DNA of 64,000 bases, from assembly GCF_000002425.4 (NCBI RefSeq), contig NC_037270.1, positions 10,278,494 to 10,342,493 of the forward strand. Reading direction: 5' to 3'. Source of the DNA: Physcomitrium patens. Its lineage: Eukaryota > Streptophyta > Bryopsida > Funariales > Funariaceae. Positions 6,845 through 62,218 of the stretch are shown here, in pieces (the stretch's first letter is position 1; every line of letters begins with the position of its first letter). The notes beneath the pieces were generated by a model, which was not told the origin of the DNA, made no database searches, and saw only the letters and a list, made by a program, of their open reading frames with translations. The position numbers and the translations under genes are program-made.

Positions 6845-7050
6845 AGTAACAATTAAATAAATATCTAATACTACTCAAGATAAGTAAAAAAAAGGACTTG
6901 ACGACAGAGAAAATATTAAGAACAATATCAATTTAGAAGAGGGTGATCCACAACTTCTAATAAGCTTATGTCTTATCATAAAAAAAGAACAATCCACTAT
7001 TAATGAAGACAAGAGAAAGCTCTGATATTGTAAGTGTACTCTTATCAATT

Positions 7051-7600
7051 TATCAATGACATGAATTGGAAGATAATGCATAAATCAATGAAATATGTGT
7101 CAAAAAAAAAGTGACAATAGAAATAAAGAAGTACTTATATTAAAAAGAAACTAGAATGGCTTATTGCGAAAGAAAAGAAAACTTCAGACTCTTGAAACAA
7201 GACTAGAAGCAAGAAAGGAATTAACAAGAATGAAAAAGGCTTCATTCTTGCCTCTATATATACTATCTAACTAGGAGCTAACTATGTGGCAATGTTCTAT
7301 AGGACCTGTAATATGTATTGACTTTGCAAGACACATGCCTTAGCTTATAAGGCAAGTTTTCTATGTATGGGCCACATAGTTAGCTTGTTCTTCAAGCTAT
7401 CAACATGTGTGGCACATGGCCAACTTGTTGATCACATTTCTAATCTAAAAAGTCAATGAAAGACACCTATATAGTTAAAGCAGCGTCTATAAAGCTTTTA
7501 GGAAGCTTCTATAGAAGATATTATGGAATTGACCTACTTTTACCTATTATTATCTAAATCATATCACTAATTATTGGTTTACATGTGTATGTCCATGACA
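7051..7600 (-). repeat. 5' LTR of gypsy element 1
   Basis: The 550-bp LTR ends GTCCATGACA on the + strand, so in element sense it starts TGTCATGGAC. Its inner edge TATCAATG at 7051 corresponds to TGTCAAGG in element B. In sense orientation it has a TATATATAG box. A 10-bp inverted repeat (7225-7234 with 7241-7250) follows it. The bases next to the inner edge (7039-7050) are complementary to 7219-7230, as described for the putative self-primer. Confidence 0.75.
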
Positions 7601-11700: not shown

Positions 11701-11947
11701 TGATTTTTGCCGTTTTCAGCTGGAGTTGTGCTATATTGCAGGGATTGGGGAGATGCGTGTAGCTAGAGTAATGCGTATTTCAGAGCCTGATTCTCGCCAC
11801 TGACAGGTTCGAACGGATATTTTGACATCCTTTCTACTGAGGGGCACTCGTGGCAATGGAGACACAATAGTCAGACCGGTGAGTAAAAAAATTGGGAATC
11901 GGGAATTCATTTACAGATCCAGCATATTCGAAATTATAATTGAAACT
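8781..11947. other. GC-richer region upstream of the GT47 gene
   Basis: Base composition changes sharply here from the AT-rich flank, as expected of a gene neighbourhood. No open frame looks like a protein I recognise. The longest (minus strand, 10662-10321) has no family features. The stretch probably holds promoter and untranslated sequence of the GT47 gene. Possible splice signals include CAG/GTGAGC at 9873-9874 and acceptor-like CACTGACAG ending at about 11804, so a 5' UTR intron is possible but not shown. Confidence 0.4.
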
Positions 11948-13558
11948 ATGGGGTATGCACCGCAATGGAACACTGTGGCCACCAAGGGAAATCACCGCGC
12001 TTCAACGAAATCGAGACTTGCTGTAGGGCGGAGGGCATACGTCGCAATCGGCGCCGTCTTGGTTTTCCTTTTGTACACATGGATTGGATATGATGAGATG
12101 CGACTGGGACCTCGAACTTCATCGAGGTTCAAGCAGACTCTGAGATCAGGGGGTATTGCCGGGCAAGAATGCGAACAAAGTGCTGAACCAAGTCAGGAAG
12201 GAATTAGATCTTTAGGGTCATACGCCACGAACGCTTTAGAGAGTTGTGAATCGGCTGGACCAGATCTTCCCGTAGGGTACAACTTCGAAGCTACCAAACT
12301 CACCCCGGAGGAATGCGAAGGCCGGCACGTTTACATGTACGACCCGCCAACCGAGTTCACCGTTGATATCATCAAAAACTGCCAGAACTGGTCAACGTGG
12401 TGGACGATGTGCGAAGACGCGCAGAACGGCGGATTTGGGGTGCGATTGAGACTGCGAAAGTCCGACCCCCTGTCGAGTATCACCCAACCCCCCGATTCTT
12501 GGTATCGAACTGAGCAGTTCACCCTAGACATGTCCTGGCACAGCCGAATGAAGACCTACCCCTGCCTGACTGACGACCCAAACGAGGCTTCCATTTTCTA
12601 CGTCCCCTTCTATCACAGCCCCGATTTGACTCGAAACTTGAAGAATCCCAACATGACGGAAACAGATTACTTGACTACACGATTCGTCAAGTGGTTGGGC
12701 AAACAGGCGCCATATCAGCGCTATGGCGGCAGGCGCCACTTCATCGTCATGGGCCGCATCTTCTGGGACCACAATCGGCTTTTCAATTCCACGCACGGTT
12801 GGGGAAGCTCTCTCTTCTCGCAGCCGGAGCTGAAAAATGTCTTCAAGGTCATGATCGAGCGAAGCGAATGGGCGGCAGACACAATCGCCATCCCATACCC
12901 TACGAACTTCCATCCCACATCTGAGGCCGCGTTGCAAGCCTGGGAGGCTAAGATCCGAGTCGCGAAACGCACTAAGCTGATCTCTTTCGCTGCATCCGAC
13001 CGAAGTCGAAACATGACGGGCATGGTGCGTGGTGAGCTCTTCGACCAGTGTTCCAAATCTAAAACCTGTAATCACGTCATTTGCTCCACGGAGCTCTGTG
13101 TATTCCGGCCCCAGACAATTTATAAGATCTCCCTCGAATCCGTCTTCTGTCTAGAACCTGGAGGCGACAGCCCCACACGCAAAGGCATCTTCGATTCTCT
13201 CATCACGGGATGCATTCCAGTCCTCTTCAACACGAATCAAGCTGTGAAGATGTACTTGTGGCATCTACCAGGCAATGGCAGCGACTATTCCATCCTGATA
13301 GACGAAAATAAGGTTGTGAACGACCACTACGATGTGATGCAGCACCTGGAGCGCATTCCGAAGGAGGAGATCGCCCGGATACAGGAAAATATATTCGCCA
13401 TGTTTCCGCGGCTCTTGTACAGAAACACAAAACTGACGGGCGAGTACAAAACCAAGGATGCGTTCGACATCACAATCGACAAGCTTCTCCAAAAGCTCCC
13501 CGCTGAGGACAAGACCTCAGGCAATCACACCACCATCGGTTCGTCACTATCCCATTGA
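11948..13558 (+). CDS. GT47 exostosin-family glycosyltransferase (MUR3-like xyloglucan galactosyltransferase)
   Basis: This single-exon frame encodes 536 residues from ATG 11948. The frame is open further upstream, but only from a non-ATG codon. It fits a Golgi type II membrane protein: a basic cytosolic tail, one membrane anchor at about residues 30-47 (AYVAIGAVLVFLLYTWIGY), a stem, then the exostosin domain from about residue 123. Family marks are CEGRHVYMYDPP, WYRTEQFTLDMSWHSRMKTY followed by CLTDDPNEASIFYVPFY, and the sugar-nucleotide-binding stretch VFCLEPGGDSPTRKGIFDSL at about residues 399-418. Several N-glycosylation sequons (NWST, NMTE, NSTH, NMTG) suit a lumenal domain. Plant members of this GT47 group add galactose or related sugars to xyloglucan side chains. 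The exact donor and acceptor cannot be read from the sequence, and an arabino- or uronosyltransferase of the same group is possible. I see no break. Confidence 0.9.
   Translation: MGYAPQWNTVATKGNHRASTKSRLAVGRRAYVAIGAVLVFLLYTWIGYDEMRLGPRTSSRFKQTLRSGGIAGQECEQSAEPSQEGIRSLGSYATNALESCESAGPDLPVGYNFEATKLTPEECEGRHVYMYDPPTEFTVDIIKNCQNWSTWWTMCEDAQNGGFGVRLRLRKSDPLSSITQPPDSWYRTEQFTLDMSWHSRMKTYPCLTDDPNEASIFYVPFYHSPDLTRNLKNPNMTETDYLTTRFVKWLGKQAPYQRYGGRRHFIVMGRIFWDHNRLFNSTHGWGSSLFSQPELKNVFKVMIERSEWAADTIAIPYPTNFHPTSEAALQAWEAKIRVAKRTKLISFAASDRSRNMTGMVRGELFDQCSKSKTCNHVICSTELCVFRPQTIYKISLESVFCLEPGGDSPTRKGIFDSLITGCIPVLFNTNQAVKMYLWHLPGNGSDYSILIDENKVVNDHYDVMQHLERIPKEEIARIQENIFAMFPRLLYRNTKLTGEYKTKDAFDITIDKLLQKLPAEDKTSGNHTTIGSSLSH

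Positions 13559-20428: not shown

Positions 20429-20474
<46 letters not shown>
20392..20474. repeat. GAT repeat joined to a (TA)n microsatellite
   Basis: A (GAT)n run at about 20392-20418 belongs to the copia reading frame. A (TA)n run of about 40 bp (20431-20473) lies in the first bases of the gypsy A 5' LTR and explains why that LTR is about 35 bp longer than its partner. Confidence 0.75.
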
Positions 20475-20477
<3 letters not shown>

Positions 20478-20986
20478 CTTTAGTAAATATCTATATGATT
20501 AGGTTGAAATAGATAAAATTAGATTAATTTCATAATACAATTTAGAAAAGCTTTCTAAAAGCTTCATAGATGTTGTTTTGACTTTACATATATTTGTAAT
20601 TGATTGATAGGTTAAAAACTTGATCAATAAATTAATTACATATTGGTAGCTTGTGAAACAAGCTAATTATGTAGCACATATGTAAGAAACTTGATTTGCA
20701 AGTTAAGATACGTGTCTTGCAAAGTCAACATGTTTTGGAGGTCCTATAAGACATCGCCACGTAGTTTTTAATTAAGAATATATATGGAGACAAGAATGAA
20801 GCTTTCTTCACTCTTGTCAATGTCTTTCTAGTCTTTAGTCTTATTCTAAGACTTTCTAGTCTTCTTGTCTTTGGCATTAGCTATTTTAATTCAATAATAT
20901 ATCATCTTTGAGTGACTTTTTAATTCTTTTCAGTGATACATGAGTATATTGAGGATTTTCTTTCTTCAAGATTCATATCCTTGAAA
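20423..20986 (+). repeat. 5' LTR of gypsy element A
   Basis: Its start (TATCATAGATATAT) aligns with TGTCATGGATATAT of this family and is partly overrun by a TA microsatellite. It has TATATATGG at about 20779-20787 and an inverted repeat (20789-20801 with 20806-20818). It ends TTGAAA where siblings have TTGACA. Confidence 0.75.
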
Positions 20987-21245
20987 ATTTGATAAGAATA
21001 CTAACTTATTGTTTCTAGCTTGTTTTAAAAGTGAGTGAATTATTCTACTTCTATTGTTGTATTTTGAGGATTACGAACTATCTATCTTTAATTAAAAAAA
21101 TATATTTTTTAATATTAATCTTTTTCTAAAAGAAATTAAATTAAACATCTTTGTGAAAAAATTTATTTGGTATTAGAGGTTGTAGATTATTCTCTTCTAA
21201 TTTAATTTTTTGAATTTGTTTGAATTATCTATAAAAAGAAAGATT

Positions 21246-22998: not shown

Positions 22999-23559
22999 TG
23001 TCAAGGACAAGAACTCGATGAAAAAAAAATTCAGACAGGTGAGCCTTCACTCAAAGAGGGGTAACAAAATATATATAAATAAGGATATATATTGAAAGAG
23101 AAACTGGAATGGCTATTGCCAAAAGACAAGAAAACTAGAGACCCTTGAAACTAGACTAGAAGCAAGAAAGGAGTTGACAAGAGTGAAGAAGCCTTCACTC
23201 TTGTCTCTATATATACTATCTAACTAGGGGTTATATGGTGACGTTCTATAGGACCTCCAATATGAGTTGACTTTGTAGAACACATGCCTTGACTTACAAG
23301 TCAAGTTTTTCTACATGTGGGCCACATAGTTAGCTTGATCTTCAAGCTAACAATATGTGTGGCACATGGCCAACTTGTTGACCACGTTTCTAATCCAAAA
23401 AGTCAATTAAAGATACCTATGAAGTCAAAGCAGCATCTATGAAGCTTTTAGGAAGCTTCCATATTAAATACTATAGAATTAACTTACTTTTATTTATTTT
23501 TACTTACTTCTACCTATTTGTATATGTAATTACTAGCTTACATGATTATGTCCGTGACA
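22999..23559 (-). repeat. 3' LTR of gypsy element B
   Basis: On the + strand it runs from TGTCAAGGACAAG to GTCCGTGACA. It carries a perfect 13-bp inverted repeat (23176-23188 with 23193-23205) beside the TATA box, and one heat-shock-type dimer in GGAAGCTTCC near 23451-23460. Confidence 0.9.
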
Positions 23560-24117
23560 TTACCCCCCCTTCTAGGAACGAGTTCCACGAGGAGCGGTCA
23601 TCATATGTTGAGAAAATCTATGATGCGATGAATTGTATTCGCCACATACTCTGATCTTTGTTCTCTTCGAAGATGATTGATAGGGCCTCTCAACTATCAG
23701 TAGTGTTCCATACCAGGGCGAGAAGACCACCCAGTTATTTGATCATTGTTGAGGCCTTCGTAACTTCCTTCGAATAGAATATTTGGAACACCATCAGGAG
23801 TTGTTCCTACCTCTAGCACAATCACCAAACATCGGGAGTCCCTTCCCAAATCATGATACCAAACGCATTGTATCTCGCCATCTATCCGAGGAAGAACATG
23901 TCGTTCTTGAAGATCTTCATCTGGATTGCATCGTCTTCAAGGTTGTGACAATCGTAATGTCTCATCAGACAAGTCAGCAAATGAAGGCTCTTGAGTCGAA
24001 TCCGCTGGTTGTTGGTTCTCCATCTCCTAAGCATCACTACTACAAAGAAGCTACAAACAAGAATTAAAAGTAGAATGTTATCTTGCCTAGATGTTGTTTC
24101 TTTTATAAAGAAGGTTT

Positions 24118-27100
24118 TCATCTTGATTTTGATGGATGTCGTCGATGAAAAGCCTCCACCGCCTTTGTTGCATTTACAAGATTCTTTATTGGCTCCCATG
24201 TACATTCACTAATACCATATCCACGCCAATGGACAAGATATTCTAATTTATTTCAGCGCCACCTTGAATCTAAGACTTCTTCTACTTCAAACTCTTCATT
24301 ATTATCCACTTCTATAGGAGGAGGTGGAGCTTGTCATCTTCTTGGTATGTCTACTATCTTGTATGGTTCAAGAAGAGACTCGTGGAATACTAGATGGATT
24401 TTCATTGACTCCGGTAGACGTAAACGATATGCAATTGGATTGATTTGTACAGAAATAGAAAATGGTTCCAGCCTTCGATAGTCCAGCTTGTCACAAAGAC
24501 GAGTGGACTTGATATTCCGACGAAGTAGCCATACCTTATCACCCAAGACGAATGATGGTTGTTCCTTTCGATAGACATCCGCATTGACCTTTTGTTGTTC
24601 TTGAGCCTCTTTTAACTGTGCCTTTATCGTTGCATGTAGCTCTGATAAATGAATTGCCAAATCTTTCGCAGCAGGATTATCAACTTTTGAAAAGTCAAAA
24701 GTATCAAGTCATGGATGATAACCATAATTAGCAAAGAAAGGTGTTTGTTTTCTAGAAGAATGTACTGTGTTATTGTAAGCAAACTCTACCAATGGCAAAA
24801 GAGTTGTTCAATCATCTTGTTGGTAACTAATGGTACATCTTAAATATTGCTCCAAAACTTGATTAACATGCTCCGTTTGTCCATGAGTTTGAGGATGGAA
24901 TGCCGAAGATAGTTTTACATCCACTTTAAGAATCTTGAAAAGAGTCCGCCAAAATCTTGATACAAATTGAGTTCTCCTATCTGATATAATATCCTTGGGT
25001 AATCCATGATAGTGATAGATATTGTCAAGAAAGAGCTTAGCTGTTTCTTCACCTGTGATAGATTTTGTACATAGTACAAAATGTGCCATCTTGGTAAAAC
25101 GACCTACTATCACGAAAATAGAGTCAAAAGAACTTGAGATTGGAAGATCCGTGATGAAGTCCATAGAAACAAAAGACCATGGTTGTTCTGAAATGGATAA
25201 TGGCTGAAGAAGTCCAAAAGGTTGATGACGAGGAGTTTTCGATCTTGAACAAACATCACATGATTGTACAAAATCTTTAACTGCCTTCCACATTTGAGGC
25301 CACCAAAAATCCCTAGATATCAGCTCCAAAGTCTTATTATATCCAAAATGTCCTACTGCTGGGAAGTCATGACGAGCTTGAAGAACACGTAAACGAGCTT
25401 CTCCTTTTGGAAGATATAGGCATCCTTTGAAATACAGTAGGTTGTTCTTGAATTCAAATTTAGAGGGGTCATGAGATTTAGAAGAATTATTCTTGATATC
25501 ATGAACAAGAGGGTCTGAAGACATACTTAACTGGACTTACTTAAGAAAAGTTAAATCAACAGTCAATGTTGATTTTAATGCTCTAAGATGAAATTGCAGT
25601 GGCTTCAAGAGAATCGTTCTTTGTTGCTCAAAAGCTACATCTCCTTCTTTTGGTGCAAGATAAGAACGTATAGACAAGGCATCGAACAAACCTTGTTGTT
25701 TTCCTGGCCGATAAGTGATGATGAACTCCAATCTTGATAAAGACATGCTCCAACGAGCTTGGCGACGATTTAATATGTGTGTTGACATAAAATATTCGAG
25801 GTTTTTGTGAACCGTATATACGGTGACTGGACTGGAAGCGCCTTCTAGATAATGACACCATTCTTGAAAAGAATCCACAATTGCAAGAAGTTCTTTGTCG
25901 TGGATCTCATAATTAATTTTTGCTGCTAATAATTTTCTTGAATGAAAGGCTACTGGATGAAGTTTGTCATCTGTTCCCATTTGTGATAAAACCACACCCA
26001 GAGCAAAGTCCGATGCATCTGTTTCTATAAAGAATGCTTTGGAAAAATCAACATGATACAAGATTGGTGTAGAAACAAACGTTGTCTTCAAAGATTCAAA
26101 AGCAACTTCCGCTTCTTGATTCTATTGGAGTTTGTCTTTAGAAGTCAAACGTGTAAGTAGAGCTGCAACTCGAGAGAAGTCTTTGATGAAGACTCGATAG
26201 TAGTTGGCAAATCCCAAAAAACATTGGACATCTCTTACCATTTTTGGGATCTCCCAGTCTATAATAGTTTGAACTTTCTTAGGATCCATTATAAGTCCAT
26301 CATTTGAAATGATGTAACCTAAGAAATCGACTTGAGTAATGTGGAATACACACTTTTCTATCTTGGCATAGAGTCCTGCATCTCTTAATTTTTGTAACAC
26401 ATGACGAACATGAAGTTCATGTTTTTCTGGATTCTTAGAATAGATCGAGATGTCGTCTAGATAACAGACTACAAAATCGTCCAAAAACTCTCAAAAAATA
26501 TCATTCATTAGATGTTAAAAAGCTGCTGGTGCATTTGTAAGTCCAAAAGGCATGACGTTGTATTCAAAATTTCCATACCTAGTTCGAAATGCAGTCTTCT
26601 ATTCATCTCCTTCTTTAATGCATACTAGACTATATGCTCTCTGAAGATCTATTTTTGTATAGATCTTAGCTTGATTCAGCTAATTAAGAAGTTCAGATAT
26701 TAAATGTAGTAGATACCTGTTCTTGATGGTAATCTTGTTGAGTCCTCGATAATCAATACACATCCGCAATGATCCATTTTTTTTCTTCACAAATAGAATT
26801 GGAGCTCCTCCCAAAGATTTAGAATGGCGTATGAAATTTTTGGCTAGATTTTCTTCAATACACTCCTTGAGTTCAGCCAACTTATTTTGTGATAAACTGT
26901 AGATTGGTCCGAATGGCGGTTGTACTCCTTCTTAAAGGTCAATTGAGCAATCATATGGACAATATTTTAAAAGTGTATCCGCATTCTTTTTTTCAAATAC
27001 ATCTTGTAATTCTTGATATTGGCTTGGAATGCCACTTGAAGTCTTTTCACCAGTAGAAACGGGTGTGGCATAAATAATATATGGTGATTCTTTCATAGCA

Positions 27101-27741
27101 GCATGCAAGAAAGCTTTTGTATCTATAAATATGGGTTTAATTGAACTAGACTTATGACTCTCTACTTGATTAACTACACTATTAGTTATACTTTTAGAGA
27201 AAGTAAGAATTCGAGAAATCCAATCTATTTGAGGGTTGTATTTTTCTAACCACGATAAACCTAAAATGACTAGATTAGAGGGAGATCTAATGATATTAAA
27301 TACTACAAAACTATTATGACCATTGATTATTACTTCTACAGGAAGGGTTTTGTGAGTAATATCTCCAGAAGATAATGGACGACCATCTATGACTTCTACA
27401 TGAACAGGTTTAGTTTTCTTTACTAAAGATATGCTATGTCTTTTAGTAAATTCTTCATCTAAAAAACAGGCTGAGGCTCCTGAATCTAATAAGGCAGAGA
27501 CTTTGTAATGTTTAGGTCCTAAAATAACATTTAATGTAAAACAAGGAGAGGGCTCTGAGGAGAGAATAGGACCTTTACTAGATGTTGTGCAAGGTTCCAG
27601 CCGCACAATCCCTATTGTAGCTGGACAAACTCGTTTTTCGACATATTGTCTTCTTTCACAGCCATACTCTTCATTTTGTGATTGCGTCGTTTCTTTGGAC
27701 AATGTTGAGTAGTGTGCTTTGGTTCTCCATAATATAAACAT
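24118..27741 (-). pseudogene. Pol of gypsy element B (PR-RT-RNase H-IN-chromodomain), single frame with point stops
   Basis: One continuous frame of 1208 codons runs without net indel. Protease has LLDSGASACFLDEEF (about 27500). RT has [20 protein letters not shown] and an intact YLDD box (about 26455). RNase H has ETDASDFALG and HDKELLAIV (about 26020-25890). Integrase keeps its zinc finger (H...H...CDVC) and the D-D-E residues (MDFITDLP, SDRRTQF, GQTEH). The C-terminal chromodomain reads FEVEEVLDSRW and LEYLVHWRGYG. Eleven in-frame stops break it, each one transition away from a Gln, Arg or Trp codon that the sibling copies predict. Pol opens in the -1 frame relative to gag and overlaps it. 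It is close to its original sequence but cannot make a full enzyme. Confidence 0.9.
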
Positions 27742-28613
27742 AATCCTTCTTGACGATGATGAGTCTTTTCTTGCTCAGTAAGAGGTTTGAAACGTACTGC
27801 ATTAATTTGCATATCCTCTACTTCCGAATGTATGTGTTGAAGAGGTGTTGGTATTGCCATTGAATTATAGTAACGTTGAGGTCCACTTGTACGGTTCTCA
27901 GATCGGAATTCAAAAAGGTGATTGACACACTTCACAGCAAAGTCAATTGCTTGACTCAATGTTTGAGGATCAGGTAAGTTGAGCATTAATTTTTTTACCT
28001 CATATTGTAATCCGTAGAGAAATTGGCTAATAAGTGCAGCATCATCCCACTTGATATCAATTACAAGTTATCAAAATTGTGAAGCATATAACATTACTGA
28101 TCGATTGTCTTGTCGTAAAATACGGATCTTATTGGTTGCAACACAAATTGCATCATGTTCTCCATACAAGGATCCAAATTCCACCAAAAAAGCCTCTAGA
28201 TTATCCAATATTGGATCTCGTCGTTCAAGAAAAGATGAAAATCATGATAGTGCTGAACCTGAAAGAAGCATACCAATGAATCTAACTTACGATCCTAGAG
28301 TTGGATAGCTTTGGGATTGAAGTTCAATCACAAGTTGTACTTGATTGATAAATCCTCGAAACTTGGATCTAGTGCCATCAAACTTCTCGGCAATTCTTGG
28401 TTCTCTAACATTTGAAGGGCATTCCACCATAGGAGAAAGGATATGGTTTGGTGCAGATGTTGAAGCAGCTCCAACCATTTCTATATCTTCACTTCCTGCC
28501 AATCTTATTGCTCCTTGTGGTGGTAAATTGAGTTGATGCATTGCAAGCATTAACTCCCTCAATTGCTCTTATATTTGTGCTATTGCACTCTTCATTTCAA
28601 CAAGTTCTGCCAT
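27612..28613 (-). pseudogene. Gag of gypsy element B
   Basis: ATG at 28613 opens a frame of about 333 codons ending at 27612, with in-frame stops after about 13 codons, near 28287 and later. Conserved blocks include VREPRIAEKFDGTRSKFRGF (about 28400-28340) and LPDPQTLSQAIDFAVK (about 27980-27930). The zinc knuckle CLYYGEPKHTTQHC has its second Cys replaced by Tyr. Gag normally forms the particle and binds element RNA. The last 130 bases overlap pol. Confidence 0.8.
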
Positions 28614-28639
28614 AATAACACTAAGAAGAAAGAAGATGT

Positions 28640-28825
28640 CTAATATCGCTCAAGACAAATAGAAGAGAGGACTTAAGAACAAAGAAAATACTAAGAACAA
28701 TATCAGTTTAGAAGAGGATAATCCGTAACTTCTAATATGCTTATATCTTATCAAAAAAAAGGGATAATCCACTCTTAATCAAGATTAGACAAAGCTCTGA
28801 TATTATAGGTGTATTCTTGTCAATC
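28640..28825 (-). ncRNA. Leader of element B: primer-site region and stem-loop unit
   Basis: Sense-strand sequence after the 5' LTR begins GATTGACAAGAATACACC (28825-28808). TTGACAAGA (28823-28815) is complementary to TCTTGTCAA (29009-29001) at the expected transcript start. Next comes a stem-loop whose arms are AATATCAG and CTGATATT and which encloses two GGATTATCC-like motifs. This is untranslated element RNA, and no separate RNA product is claimed. Confidence 0.5.
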
Positions 28826-29386
28826 TGTCAAGGACAAGAACTCGATGAAAAAACAAGTCAGACAAGTGAGCCTTCATTCAAAGAGAGGTAAAAAAATATA
28901 TATAAATAAGGATATATATTGAAAGAAAAACTGGAATGGCTATTGCCAAAAGACAAGAAAATTAGAGACCCTTGAAACTAGACTAGAAGCAAGAAAGGAG
29001 TTGACAAGAGTGAAGAAGCCTTTACTCTTGTCTCTATATATACTATCTAAGTAGGGGCTACGTGGCAACGTTCTATAGGACCTCCAATATGTGTTGACTT
29101 TGTAGAACACATGCCTTGACTTATAAGGCAAGTTTTTCTATGTGTGGGCCACATAATTAGCTTGATCTTCAAGCTAATAACATGTGTGGCACATGGCCAA
29201 CTTTTTGACCACGTTTCTAGTCCAAAAAGTCAATTAAAGACACCTATGAAGTCAAAGCAGCGTCTATAAAGCTTCTAAGAAGCTTCCATATTAAATACTA
29301 TAGAATTAACTTACTTTTATTTACTTTTACTTACTTCTACCTATTTGTATATGTAATTACTAGCTTACATGATTATGTTCGTGATA
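28826..29386 (-). repeat. 5' LTR of gypsy element B
   Basis: Same length and ends as the 3' LTR, except that the outer end reads GTTCGTGATA instead of GTCCGTGACA (two C-to-T changes). It contains the inverted repeat 29003-29015 with 29020-29032, now with one mismatch, and a TATATATAG box in sense. Confidence 0.9.
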
Positions 29387-32391: not shown

Positions 32392-32920
32392 GATCATGGA
32401 TATATCTAAGTCTTCTAATAAATACTTATATGATTAGATAGAAGTAGATAAAAGTAAATTAATTTCATAAAACCTTCTAAAAAAACTTCTTTGAAGCTCA
32501 TAGATGTTGTTTTGACTTTACATATGTTTGTAGTTGATTGGTAGGTTAGAAACTTAGTCAACAAGTTAATTACGTGCTGGTAACTTATAAAATAAGTTAA
32601 TTATGTGGCATACATATAGAAAACTTGCATTGTAAGTTAAAATATGTCTCTTACAAAGTCAACATGTTATAGAAGTCTTATAGAACATAGTCACGTAATT
32701 CCTGGTTAGGAATATATATGTAGACAAGAGTGAAGCTTTCTTCACTCTTGTTAATACCTTTCTAGTCCTTAGCCTTATTCTAAGACTTTCTAGTTTTCTT
32801 GTCTTTGGTATTAGTCATTCTAGTTCAATAATATATCATCTTTGAGCGGATTTCTAGTTCTTTTCAGTGATATAAGAGTGTATTGAGGATTTTCTTTCTT
32901 CAAGATTCATATCCTTGATA
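32392..32920 (+). repeat. 3' LTR of gypsy element A
   Basis: Preceded by the purine tract AGAGGGGAGATAA. It starts GATCATGGATATAT for TGTCATGG and ends ATCCTTGATA. The terminal 20 bases are duplicated in tandem to 32940, so the exact end is uncertain. Confidence 0.75.
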
Positions 32921-33052
32921 AATAATGAGTATCCTTGATAAATAATGAGTATAAAATTTTGGGTGAAAAAAGATAAGCTTTAACAAAAAATAATCTTAAA
33001 AGAGAGCATAAAGTGCAATAAGATAAATTTTCTTCAAATAAAATAAGATTTC

Positions 33053-53675: not shown

Positions 53676-54857
53676 TCATTTCCTGGCCTTCTTTGCTGGA
53701 GTGCCCACCGCTTTCACTGCCTTCGCCTTCACACCTGCGTTCGCACCCTTCACCGACTTCGGGACCTTTTTCGGCGTGGTCATCTTGCGTACTGTCGGTG
53801 GTTTCCTCACCGTCACAGGCTTCTTCGCAACCGCTGATGGGATCATTTTCTTCGCAGTCGCCGTACTCTTCTTAGCAGATACGGATGTCTTGGCCACGGC
53901 TTTTTTCGGTGCTGCTGCAGCTGCCTTGCTGCCAGACTTCATCTTTCCAGTTTTCGTCGCCTTGGCCTGTGGTTCAGCGCCTTTGATCACCTTGGCACTT
54001 GGTGCCTTGGACTTGGCAGCACCCTCTCCGGCGCTCTTCGTCTTCACGCGACGAGCCACAAGCTTCTTGATGGCCTTGGCTTTCGGCGCAACCTTCACCA
54101 CTGCCTGTGGAGCGCTCGGAGCTTTTACCGGTTTCGAAGGCTTCTTCAACTCGTTCGACAGTTTGAATGAGTTCTTCACCTTAACCAGTTTCTCGGCCTT
54201 ACTCAAATTACGCAACTGAGTACTCAGAGTCTTCTCGAAGTTGGGGGGCAGCCCTGTATTATACTTGTCTTCCAAGTACTTCGCAATGGCATATTGGCTA
54301 GACCCAGTCCTCTCCTTCAAAGCGCCAATGGCTTCCACAACCATCTGAAATCATCCTCACCGCATCACTCGTTAGATCCGAAACCCTGCTCGAACTGCAG
54401 CTCCCTTAGCCACGCGGCTAACCAACGTATTTCCGAGAACAGGGTATGAACAACCAACATAATAAATGAAACCAATTCACCGCCTCCATTATTGAGACCA
54501 CATCGATCCCGAAACAAGTTTCCAGCGGCACTAAACATCGCGAACACCCTACTTACAACCATCATGTGTCCCGAGTGACCCACATCATACCTTATAGAAT
54601 ACGTTGTTCATATACTAATGCGGACGGATCAAACTCACCATCATGTACGTAGGGTGAGACGCAGCCAACTTCGGAACCTTCTCTGAGGTAGCCTTGGGCT
54701 CTTTGACCTTAGCTTCTTTCACTTTTTTCTCCTTCTCCATCTTGACCTTCTTCCCTTTAGACGCCTGTCGAGGCTCCACCTCCTCCACGGGGAGCTTTTC
54801 TACCACCGCTAAATCAGAGGCAGGATCAACCACAGGGGTGGGCTCAACGGCAGCCAT
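53676..54857 (-). CDS. Linker histone H1, two exons
   Basis: Exon 1 (54857-54639) encodes 73 residues and exon 2 (54344-53676) 222, giving 295. The 294-base intron has GTGAGT and TTTCAG ends and splits the globular domain after HPTYMM. The layout is classic H1: an acidic/basic N-tail, the winged-helix domain at about residues 65-130 (MVVEAIGALKERTGSSQYAI, KYLEDKYNTGLPPNFEKTLS, then QLRNLSKAEKLVKVKNSFKL), and a long Lys/Ala/Pro-rich C-tail with repeated KKVP and AKK motifs. It binds linker DNA at the nucleosome and compacts chromatin. An E2F-type site upstream suits S-phase expression. ATG 54857 is chosen because the longer frame opens with TTG. I see no damage. Confidence 0.95.
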
Positions 54858-60212: not shown

Positions 60213-60444
60213 TTCTAGAACCTTCTAGAAAGAAGTCTCTAGAAACTTCTAGAAGATTCTTTGAATATTCTTTTAGAATATTCTTCAAAGATTTCTTAAA
60301 TATTCTTTGAAGATTCTCTAAAGATTCTCTTAGAAGGCTCTAGAAGATTCTTAGAATATTCTAGTAGATTCTAGGAAGTTATTTAAGAAGCTTCCTAGCT
60401 CTTGGGTAGTTCCTCGAGAAGCTTCATAGTTCTTGGGAAGCTTC
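60213..60444. promoter_or_regulatory. Cluster of heat-shock elements in the element 4 LTR
   Basis: Two perfect four-unit heat-shock elements are visible, TTCtaGAAccTTCtaGAA (60213-60230) and GAAacTTCtaGAAgaTTC (60242-60259). GAAnnTTC dimers follow at 60263, 60276, 60309, 60343, 60354, 60387, 60418 and 60437, the last three as AGAAGCTTC or GGAAGCTTC. Heat shock factors bind alternating nGAAn units, and two or more adjacent units suffice. Position directly upstream of the TATA box suits an enhancer. Activity is inferred. Confidence 0.8.
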
Positions 60445-60477
60445 TTGATGCGCTTCCTTAGAACCATAGGCCAGTAG

Positions 60478-60486
60478 TATATATAG
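60478..60486 (+). promoter_or_regulatory. TATA box of the element 4 LTR
   Basis: TATATATAG. The same box, embedded in AGTATATATAG, is kept in element 1, element B and the LTR at 20-551. About 33 bases downstream lies the segment complementary to the primer site. Confidence 0.75.
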
Positions 60487-60509
60487 GAGTCGAGGCTGAA
60501 GAGTTCTTC

Positions 60510-60520
60510 AGTCTCAACAA
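60510..60520 (+). promoter_or_regulatory. Putative self-primer at the expected transcript start
   Basis: AGTCTCAACAA begins 33 bases after the first T of the TATA box, where transcription should start. It pairs with 60650-60660 (TTGTCGAGACT) at 10 of 11 positions. Confidence 0.5.
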
Positions 60521-60648
60521 CGCATCTCTTGAAGCTCTAGCTCAATTCTCTTGGTGTTGCTCTTGTACTCATCTGATAATCTAGTTCTTGTCATTTCTTC
60601 TTGAACTTTTTCTTTAAATTTCTTGTTTATATTTTTGGTCCATGACAG

Positions 60649-60660
60649 TTTGTCGAGACT
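60649..60660 (+). promoter_or_regulatory. Putative primer binding site of element 4
   Basis: TTTGTCGAGACT lies one base after the LTR end, the normal place of a primer binding site. It lacks the TGG that a site for a tRNA CCA end would start with. Confidence 0.5.
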
Positions 60661-60671
60661 ACCTTTATCTT

Positions 60672-61045
60672 AATATCAGAGCTGAATCCTTCTTGTTTGA
60701 GAGCGGATTACCCCTCTTCTTGAAGGTATTCTAGCGCTTTAGAGGTTGCGGATTACCTTCCTCTAAACTGATATTTTCTCAATCACAATATCAGAGCTTA
60801 GTTCTTTGAGGCAGAGAGTGGACTACCCCTTTCCTTGGAGATACTTGAGCATTCTAAGGGTTGTGGATTATCCTCTCTTGGACTGATATTAATTCCTTCT
60901 TTTTGTTTAGCATAGCTAGTAGAAAAGATTGTTAACATCGATTTCAGAGCTTTGCCTTCTTGATAGAGTGCGGATTACCCCTCTTCTCGAAAGCATTGAG
61001 GCATTTTTAGAGGTTGCGGATTACCCTCCTCTAAAACTGAAATCG
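60672..61045 (+). ncRNA. Three tandem leader stem-loop units of element 4
   Basis: Each unit has closing arms and two internal GGATTACC-like motifs. Unit 1 has arms 60672-60679 and 60768-60775 (AATATCAG, CTGATATT). Unit 2 has 60787-60794 and 60883-60890 (same arms). Unit 3 has 60939-60947 and 61037-61045 (CGATTTCAG, CTGAAATCG). The change in unit 3 is compensated in both arms. It lies in untranslated element RNA between primer site and gag, so packaging or translation control is possible. Confidence 0.6.
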
Positions 61046-61168
61046 TTTAGTGTTTTTTTTTTCTCTTTTCTCCGAGTAGGTTTTAGTGACAGGTAGTGCT
61101 ACAATTTTCTCCAAGAGACTTAGCAATTCCTTCTTCTCTCAAAATTTTAATCCATCTATTCTCTAAAT

Positions 61169-62218
61169 ATGGAAGTAGACCAAGTCATAGACAGTGCATC
61201 TCCACAAGTACACAATAGAGTGGTAACTCTTGCAGATCTTCAAGTTCTTATGAATAGTGTACGAAAGGAGATTGTATTTCTTCGCAATCTAAGTAAAGAA
61301 CCTCAAATTGATCTAGTGACCGAAGAAGCTAGACGCAAAATTCATAGCCTACAACAAGAGATTATTCGACTGAGAGAAGCAAGACATGTGTCACATACGA
61401 CCCCTATAGATACTTCAAGGATTAGTACGAAAGAACCAAAAGCGAGTATGCCAGACAAGTTTGACGGAACAAGAGCCAACTTCCGAGGTTTTGTGCAACA
61501 AGTACGGCTTTACCTACGCCTATATCCTTCTCGTTATCCGAATGGATTTGCCCAGGTTGCTTTCATAGGTACTCTTCTATCAGGAAATGCTCGGTCTTGG
61601 CTTGCTCCACTATTGGAGAAGGATTCTCCAATATTGTACGACCTAGAGGCTTTCATAGAGAGACTTACTGTTGCGTTTGGAGATAGCGATCGAGAAAGAG
61701 TGGCTGAAAGAAAGATACAAAATCTGCGACAAGGATCACGTTCTGCTGCAATCTATGCTGCAAAATTTCAACAGGTTACATGTGATCTTGATTGAAATGA
61801 TAAGGCGTTCATGACATGATTTCGATATGGACTGAGAGATGATGTCAAGAACTTATTGATCACCATGCTTAAGGCGGATATTTTAGAAGAACTTATATCT
61901 CAGGCAATTATTTGTGACAACCACCTCTTTGAATTACGACAAGAAAGACGATCAGGCTGGAGAAATGATGGAGCATTTGCTACATTTTCAAAAGGTCCAG
62001 AGAATCACTCCACAGATCCTGAACCCATGCAAATTGATGCGGTACGTTTCAAACCCCTCACAGCTGAGGAAAAGAAGCGACGGTTTGAACAAAACTTGTG
62101 TTTATATTGTGGAGAAGCGGGCAATAAAGCTATAGATTGTCGGAAGAAACAGAAGCCTCAAACAACAAGACTCAGGAGTACAAGCATGCAGGAAAACAAG
62201 GACGCCCAGCCACAATAG
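61169..62218 (+). pseudogene. Gag of element 4, two in-frame stops
   Basis: 350 codons including the stop, from ATG 61169. The N-terminal half is partly helical and charged, followed by the capsid-type block MPDKFDGTRANFRGFVQQVR and LLSGNARSWLAPLLEKDSP, then MLKADILEELISQAIICDNH. Two TGA codons (61793 and 61817) interrupt it; the first stands where siblings have Trp. The zinc knuckle CLYCGEAGNKAIDC has Asn in place of its His. The gene would supply the particle shell. The last 91 bases overlap pol in the -1 frame. Confidence 0.85.

Follow-up and report, generated by a model that had tools for sequence, protein, structure and literature searches.

This locus raises the question of how the LTR elements of the moss Physcomitrium patens prime the reverse transcription of their own RNA. 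The initial annotation had proposed that gypsy elements here self-prime, the site just after the LTR pairing with the expected 5' end of the transcript. The window analysed is a stretch of 64,000 nt, positions 10,278,494-10,342,493 of contig C18, and the genome searched is the 470.4-Mb, 101-contig assembly to which it belongs. The window contains nested LTR elements, with recognisable pieces of gag, protease, RNase H and integrase. Four of them, elements 1, A, B and 4, carry a candidate primer near the TATA box and a candidate primer-binding site (PBS) after the 5' LTR.

Pairing sites in the window

The features of the four elements are as follows.

60478-60485, plus strand: TATA box of element 4, first T 32 nt upstream of the putative +1
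60510-60520, plus strand: putative RNA nt 1-11 (self-primer) of element 4, AGTCTCAACAA
60648-60649, plus strand: GT spacer of element 4 between the LTR end CA (60647) and the PBS
60650-60660, plus strand: PBS of element 4, TTGTCGAGACT
29001-29011, minus strand: putative RNA nt 1-11 of element B, ACTCTTGTCAA
28813-28823, minus strand: PBS of element B, TTGACAAGAAT
28826-29384, minus strand: 5' LTR of element B, aligned to the 3' LTR at 22999-23557 (94% identical)
20810-20820, plus strand: putative RNA nt 1-11 of element A, ACTCTTGTCAA
20989-20999, plus strand: PBS of element A, TTGATAAGAAT
7221-7231, minus strand: putative RNA nt 1-11 of element 1, ATTCTTGTTAA
7038-7048, minus strand: PBS of element 1, TTGATAAGAGT

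The four pairings described in the initial annotation are present where it had placed them, and all can be read in one common 11-nt register. In this register, 10 of 11 positions form Watson-Crick pairs in element 4 (AGTCTCAACAA with TTGTCGAGACT) and in element B (ACTCTTGTCAA with TTGACAAGAAT). Element A has nine Watson-Crick pairs and one G-U pair out of 11 (ACTCTTGTCAA with TTGATAAGAAT). Element 1 has eight Watson-Crick and three G-U pairs, and all 11 positions are thus paired when G-U is counted (ATTCTTGTTAA with TTGATAAGAGT). The first paired base in all four elements is the A after TTC, 31-32 nt from the first T of the TATA box. The closeness of the partner to the TATA box, which had been given as 32-34 nt, stands for all four elements, and the distance itself is revised to 31-32 nt in the 11-nt register; for A and B, the earlier figure had been counted from a base slightly further inside. 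The 11-nt site begins 2 nt past the LTR end in every element, a position that is fixed for element B by its aligned LTR pair. The earlier statement that no TGG-starting tRNA site follows the 5' LTR holds as well, TGG being found directly after the LTR in 0/4 window elements.

Among the 127,980 11-mers of the window on both strands, which take in the elements' own sites, seven have at least 10 Watson-Crick matches to the element 4 primer and 10 have as many to the B/A primer. Elements A, B and 1 are mutually related, so the four pairings are not independent. Element B (22999-29384) is nested within the LTR pair of element A (20465-20987 and 32400-32921, 83% identical). Another LTR, at about 39-548 and related to element A, has a primer-like 11-mer at 378. 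Since a PBS was not found downstream of it (best 7/11, at about 500-710), it is regarded as a solo or 3' LTR. Two host genes share the window, one for a linker histone (53676-54350, minus strand) and one for an exostosin GT47 protein (11804-13558, plus strand).

Primer and binding site across genome copies

Self-priming as the mechanism is supported by the genome copies more than by the window. The PBS-side pattern of family 4, with at most two mismatches allowed, has 462 matches in the genome, and its reversed control has 0. Forty-eight relatives were fetched, all from exact PBS-side matches, and a GT gap separates the LTR end from the PBS in 48/48. Two could not be mapped; 41 of the 46 mapped relatives picked in this way pair at 11/11, and these 41 carry the primer AGTCTCGACAA. 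Primer position 7 is A in element 4 and G in most relatives. Because 41/46 relatives pair perfectly, the mismatch of element 4 is a minority variant, and its primer AGTCTCAACAA was seen at at least six places among the start-site matches listed.

A second family 4 sample was chosen by the start-site side and not by the PBS. The start-site pattern matches the genome 4,248 times (2,129 + 2,119), a count that takes in both 5' and 3' LTRs. Among the matches listed, which are all on contig C1, 17 upstream and three downstream members of LTR pairs were taken, with a pair spacing of about 5.6-5.8 kb and with the already sampled 6.07-kb pairs excluded. A PBS is present at 17/17 of the 5' junctions: 14 pair at 11/11, two at 10, and one at 10 plus a G-U. 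The three downstream members are without a PBS, and 3'-LTR junctions, namely these three and the window 3' LTRs of B and A, match at 4-6/11 in 5/5. The PBS is identical in 15/17 junctions; the next 13 nt occur in nine versions among the 17. In the one copy examined per family, the start-site 11-mer is also the best partner of the PBS within the LTR, with 11 matches versus 8-9 for the next.

All 30 family B loci were mapped, window element B among them, and 22/30 have the PBS TTGACAAGAGT and pair at 11/11; seven of the remainder share a C/A mismatch at primer position 2, and one has a G-U. The element 1 search gave 29/30 mapped loci, window element 1 included, of which seven pair at 11/11 by Watson-Crick rules and the others at 8-10. 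The element A search listed 41 places, window A among them, and 20 others were fetched and mapped; three pair at 11/11 and the others at 9-10. When G-U is counted, the 79 loci of these sets pair at 11 (48 loci), 10 (26 loci) or 9 (five loci) positions. In 15/79 loci, spread over the B, 1 and A sets, an A at PBS position 10 faces a primer C, so that base 2 of the primer is mismatched (C/A). A loss of complementarity in further copies had been named as an observation that would count against self-priming; the copies sampled, unsorted by intactness, did not refute it.

The pairing is usually bounded at nt 11 in families 4 and B. At position -1 of family 4, C faces A in 45/46 copies and T faces A in the other; at +12, C faces T in 44/46 and T faces T in two, leaving 46/46 unpaired. 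Family B is unpaired at -1 in 29/30 copies and at +12 in 29/30. An extra pair is possible at -1 in 14/20 loci of the A set, and at -1 in 3/29 and +12 in 14/29 loci of the element 1 set. Because the A and element 1 sets often extend, the exact 11-nt limit holds for two of the four sets.

Covariation between primer and site, which the initial annotation had suggested as a check, is seen between families. The common primers of B (ACTCTTGTCAA) and 4 (AGTCTCGACAA) differ at positions 2, 6 and 8, and each of these three differences is compensated by a change at the partner position of the PBS (TTGACAAGAGT in B, TTGTCGAGACT in 4). Within the B/1/A copies, in contrast, covariation is weak (n=79, shuffle p = 0.054), with p = 0.03 for pair 7 and p = 0.70 for pair 2. 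This test had 79 rows; L070 was unmapped, and the 14 pattern-picked loci L132-L145 were excluded. Fourteen loci with an altered PBS were picked and 13 mapped (L144 was unmapped). Twelve have a change at PBS position 4 with an unchanged primer, resulting in 11 G-U pairs and one mismatch; the thirteenth has a shifted site. Watson-Crick compensation occurs in 0/13. These uncompensated changes may be mutations that arose after insertion and are not evidence for coupling. A third leader type was sought with the pattern GACA, two bases, TT, C or G (PBS position 4) and ATATCAGAGC, and none was found: of the 15 sites, 13 are variants of the B type, one is a variant of family 4 and one is unrelated, a result that speaks only against a third leader type of that form. 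A search of viral contigs for encoded relatives gave none.

Predicted folding of the leader

The primer:PBS helix is the dominant feature of the predicted folds. Its mean probability is 0.956 in 30 B loci, 0.785 in 29 loci of the element 1 type and 0.982 in 46 family 4 loci, and it exceeds 0.5 in 30/30, 24/29 and 46/46, respectively. Mononucleotide-shuffled controls give 0.005 (B), 0.005 (element 1) and 0.016 (family 4), with a value above 0.5 in 1/46 family 4 shuffles. The stability of the single folds is z = -1.29 for element 4 and z = -2.70 for element B; given the former value, the overall stability of element 4 is not exceptional.

Downstream of the PBS, the leader is predicted to form a three-way-junction module of about 104 nt that starts 8-12 nt past the PBS. 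It consists of a closing stem and two arms, with a GGAUUACC-type or GGATTACC-type loop in each of the two arms. The modules predicted in the window are the following.

60672-60775, plus strand: leader module 1 of element 4
60787-60890, plus strand: leader module 2 of element 4
60940-61044, plus strand: leader module 3 of element 4
28700-28804, minus strand: leader module of element B
6925-7029, minus strand: leader module of element 1

By eye, the module is not recognisable in element A. Modules were collected by their start motif, which misses decayed copies, from seven family 4 sources whose leaders are of the three-module type (the window and six loci), seven further family 4 leaders, 27/30 B loci and 14/29 element 1 type loci. 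This gave 74 modules, 67 of them distinct (28 from family 4, 25 from B and 14 of the element 1 type). Of the cells for the 38 predicted pairs, 92.4% contain a standard pair. Changes on both sides occur in 20/38 pairs, and in 16/30 after exclusion of the closing stem, which had contributed to the choice of module ends. Sliding the partner columns by 1-3 reduces the standard fraction to 49-60% and the both-side-change pairs to 5-13, a comparison that favours the predicted structure because it was derived from the same alignment. Shuffling letters within columns gives a mean of 87.1% and a maximum of 87.8% standard.

In Rfam, 60400-61300 has three weak matches, the best with E 0.19, none of which reaches its gathering score, and among the literature matches listed, nothing on such a module was found by title and the start of the abstract. 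We tentatively propose, at a little short of an even chance, that the module represents a new class of cis-acting RNA, present in one to three tandem copies, compensated in all stems and coupled to self-priming. It would have a role in packaging, in dimerisation or in holding the primer complex. The module may be more novel than self-priming itself, and of the features described here it most deserves new work. In L186 and L188, the sequence TGGTATCAGAGC lies in the first arm of the module, at nt 22-33 counted from the start of the PBS; in L187 the last letter is different. This 12-mer is identical to what we take to be the plant tRNA-iMet PBS, and TGGTATCAGAG presumably corresponds to 11 of its 12 letters or to all of them. 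In a bolder form of the proposal, the first arm, which equals this site in some copies, would be a remnant of an ancestral tRNA-primed state.

Self-priming, its alternatives and known relatives

The use of the RNA 5' end as its own reverse-transcription primer is very probably the best explanation for these moss elements, judged from their sequences. From the TATA spacing, we infer that the primer 11-mer is RNA nt 1-11. The transcript would begin with the A of TTC|A, about 31-32 nt past the TATA box, and RNA nt 1-11 would fold back onto the 11-nt PBS located 2 nt past the 5' LTR; the pairing is present in the sequence and the fold is predicted. By analogy with Tf1, the RNase H of the element would cut after nt 11, and the cleaved 11-mer would be extended through U5 and R. 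Plus-strand synthesis would then copy the primer and help to regenerate, in each cycle, a PBS complementary to the 5' end of the RNA, and such copying would keep the two sites matched. Between families, primer and binding site remain matched and the adjoining leader diverges.

An origin of the 11-nt LTR match as a by-product, with a host tRNA or half-tRNA as the actual primer, is improbable. It would agree with the primer type of most chromoviruses, which is tRNA-Met in the sections of Neumann 2019 (PMC6317226) drawn on here, and TGGTATCAGAG does occur in 3/17 family 4 leaders, the full 12-mer TGGTATCAGAGC in two. However, this iMet-like stretch lies more than 20 nt past the LTR end, where it misfits the CA+2 boundary. 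The other 14 junctions lack its TGG, and its TATCAG segment forms an arm of a covarying stem. The leader stretch TATCAGAGC was accordingly rejected as the main site of iMet priming, since it is a stem arm, is located more than 20 nt beyond the LTR end and begins with TGG in only 3/17 junctions. TGG was found no more than 8 nt from the end of the LTR in 2/127 junctions, of which one belongs to the element 1 set and one to the A set. The search of tRNA 3' ends that the initial annotation had called for turned up no rival primer among the genes compared: 20 tRNA genes (Lys, Asn, Gln, Arg and Ile, with iMet outside the set), fetched out of 63 scored matches and compared with either PBS, reach at most 7/11 Watson-Crick, no better than shuffled sites.

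The pairing could instead be a long-range fold of the leader with a non-priming role in packaging, translation or start-site choice. The predicted stability of the primer:PBS helix and the presence of other conserved structure in the leader are compatible with such a role, which we consider even less probable than a tRNA primer: the site occupies the PBS position, CA + 2 nt, its length equals that of the Tf1 primer, and no alternative PBS candidate was seen at that position. A chance match in T/A-rich LTRs, passed on to related copies, has hardly any probability left. It might account for the four window elements taken alone, which are related and pair imperfectly, and B, A and 1 share one primer type with weak coupling within those copies. 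It does not fit the perfect pairing over 11 nt in the majority of copies examined from two families, the compensation of 3/3 differences between them, the standing of the start-site 11-mer as the best LTR site, or the lack of a match at five 3'-LTR junctions.

The pol pieces of one family 4 copy match RVT_1, integrase, SH3_Tf2-1 (PF24626, E 3.4e-18) and chromodomain (PF00385, E 1e-15). The organism names among the 120 matches listed of 2,604 in the RT search are Hyla sarda and Scortum barcoo, and those among the 120 listed of 4,130 in the integrase search are Anolis carolinensis (three times) and Morchella importuna. The relatives listed under an organism name thus comprise a frog, a fish, a lizard and one fungus. 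By sequence, family 4 fits membership of the Tf1/sushi-Tcn1 group.

The cited literature is summarised here from the excerpts consulted. The primer of Tf1 from Schizosaccharomyces pombe is made up of RNA bases 1-11, with the cut falling between bases 11 and 12, and self-priming has been proposed for Tcn1 of Cryptococcus (PMC7175516). The moss elements resemble Tf1 in the inferred complementarity of RNA nt 1-11 to the PBS, in the lack of a tRNA site at the LTR end, and in a chromodomain integrase with a Tf2-1-like SH3 domain. They differ in having a plant host and a PBS that starts 2 nt past the LTR. In the Tf1 'pretzel', two further duplexes flank primer:PBS (PMC10085805); a search for these side duplexes in six moss copies found no consistent helices. 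Tandem three-way-junction modules follow the PBS in the moss elements. Tj1 is treated in PMC4600332 and general LTR structure in PMC3601003.

Self-priming in a plant chromovirus had been considered new. This did not hold, since the accessible text of Neumann 2019 (PMC6317226) already predicts it for Tcn1-clade elements of moss and club-moss, the majority of which are without a tRNA PBS. The same source describes other plant chromoviruses as differing from the Tcn1 clade in priming, and the TAR copia elements as further predicted self-primers. The TGG-starting, tRNA-matching PBS at the LTR end that characterises tRNA-primed plant chromoviruses was not found in the elements studied here. Selaginella SM-Tcn1 gave evidence for neither tRNA priming nor self-priming in the part of Novikova 2010 (PMC2864245) available, and Physcomitrella is stated to have Tcn1-like chromodomain elements (Novikov 2012, PMC3350952). 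The elements described here, like those of the Tcn1 clade, are chromoviruses of a non-seed plant for which Neumann's prediction applies, and most likely belong to the same clade. They are a sharper case of a known kind that confirms a published prediction, and are not new to plants. Supplements aside, no published account of the start-site coupling, the exact 11-nt limits or the between-family covariation was found for moss elements in the portions of the literature consulted. On the same basis, self-priming is demonstrated for Tf1, and the plant cases are predictions only.

RLG1 is the most abundant family of Physcomitrium patens and bears a chromodomain; it is expressed in protonema and polymorphic between accessions, according to the excerpted text of Vendrell-Mir 2020 (PMC7466625), in which its priming mode was not found. 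The abundance and the chromodomain are shared with the elements described here, and RLG1 probably corresponds to the elements of type B or 4. Going by those excerpts, the moss has at least one family of this kind that is abundant, polymorphic and expressed in protonema, and a plant could thus offer a direct test of the mechanism.
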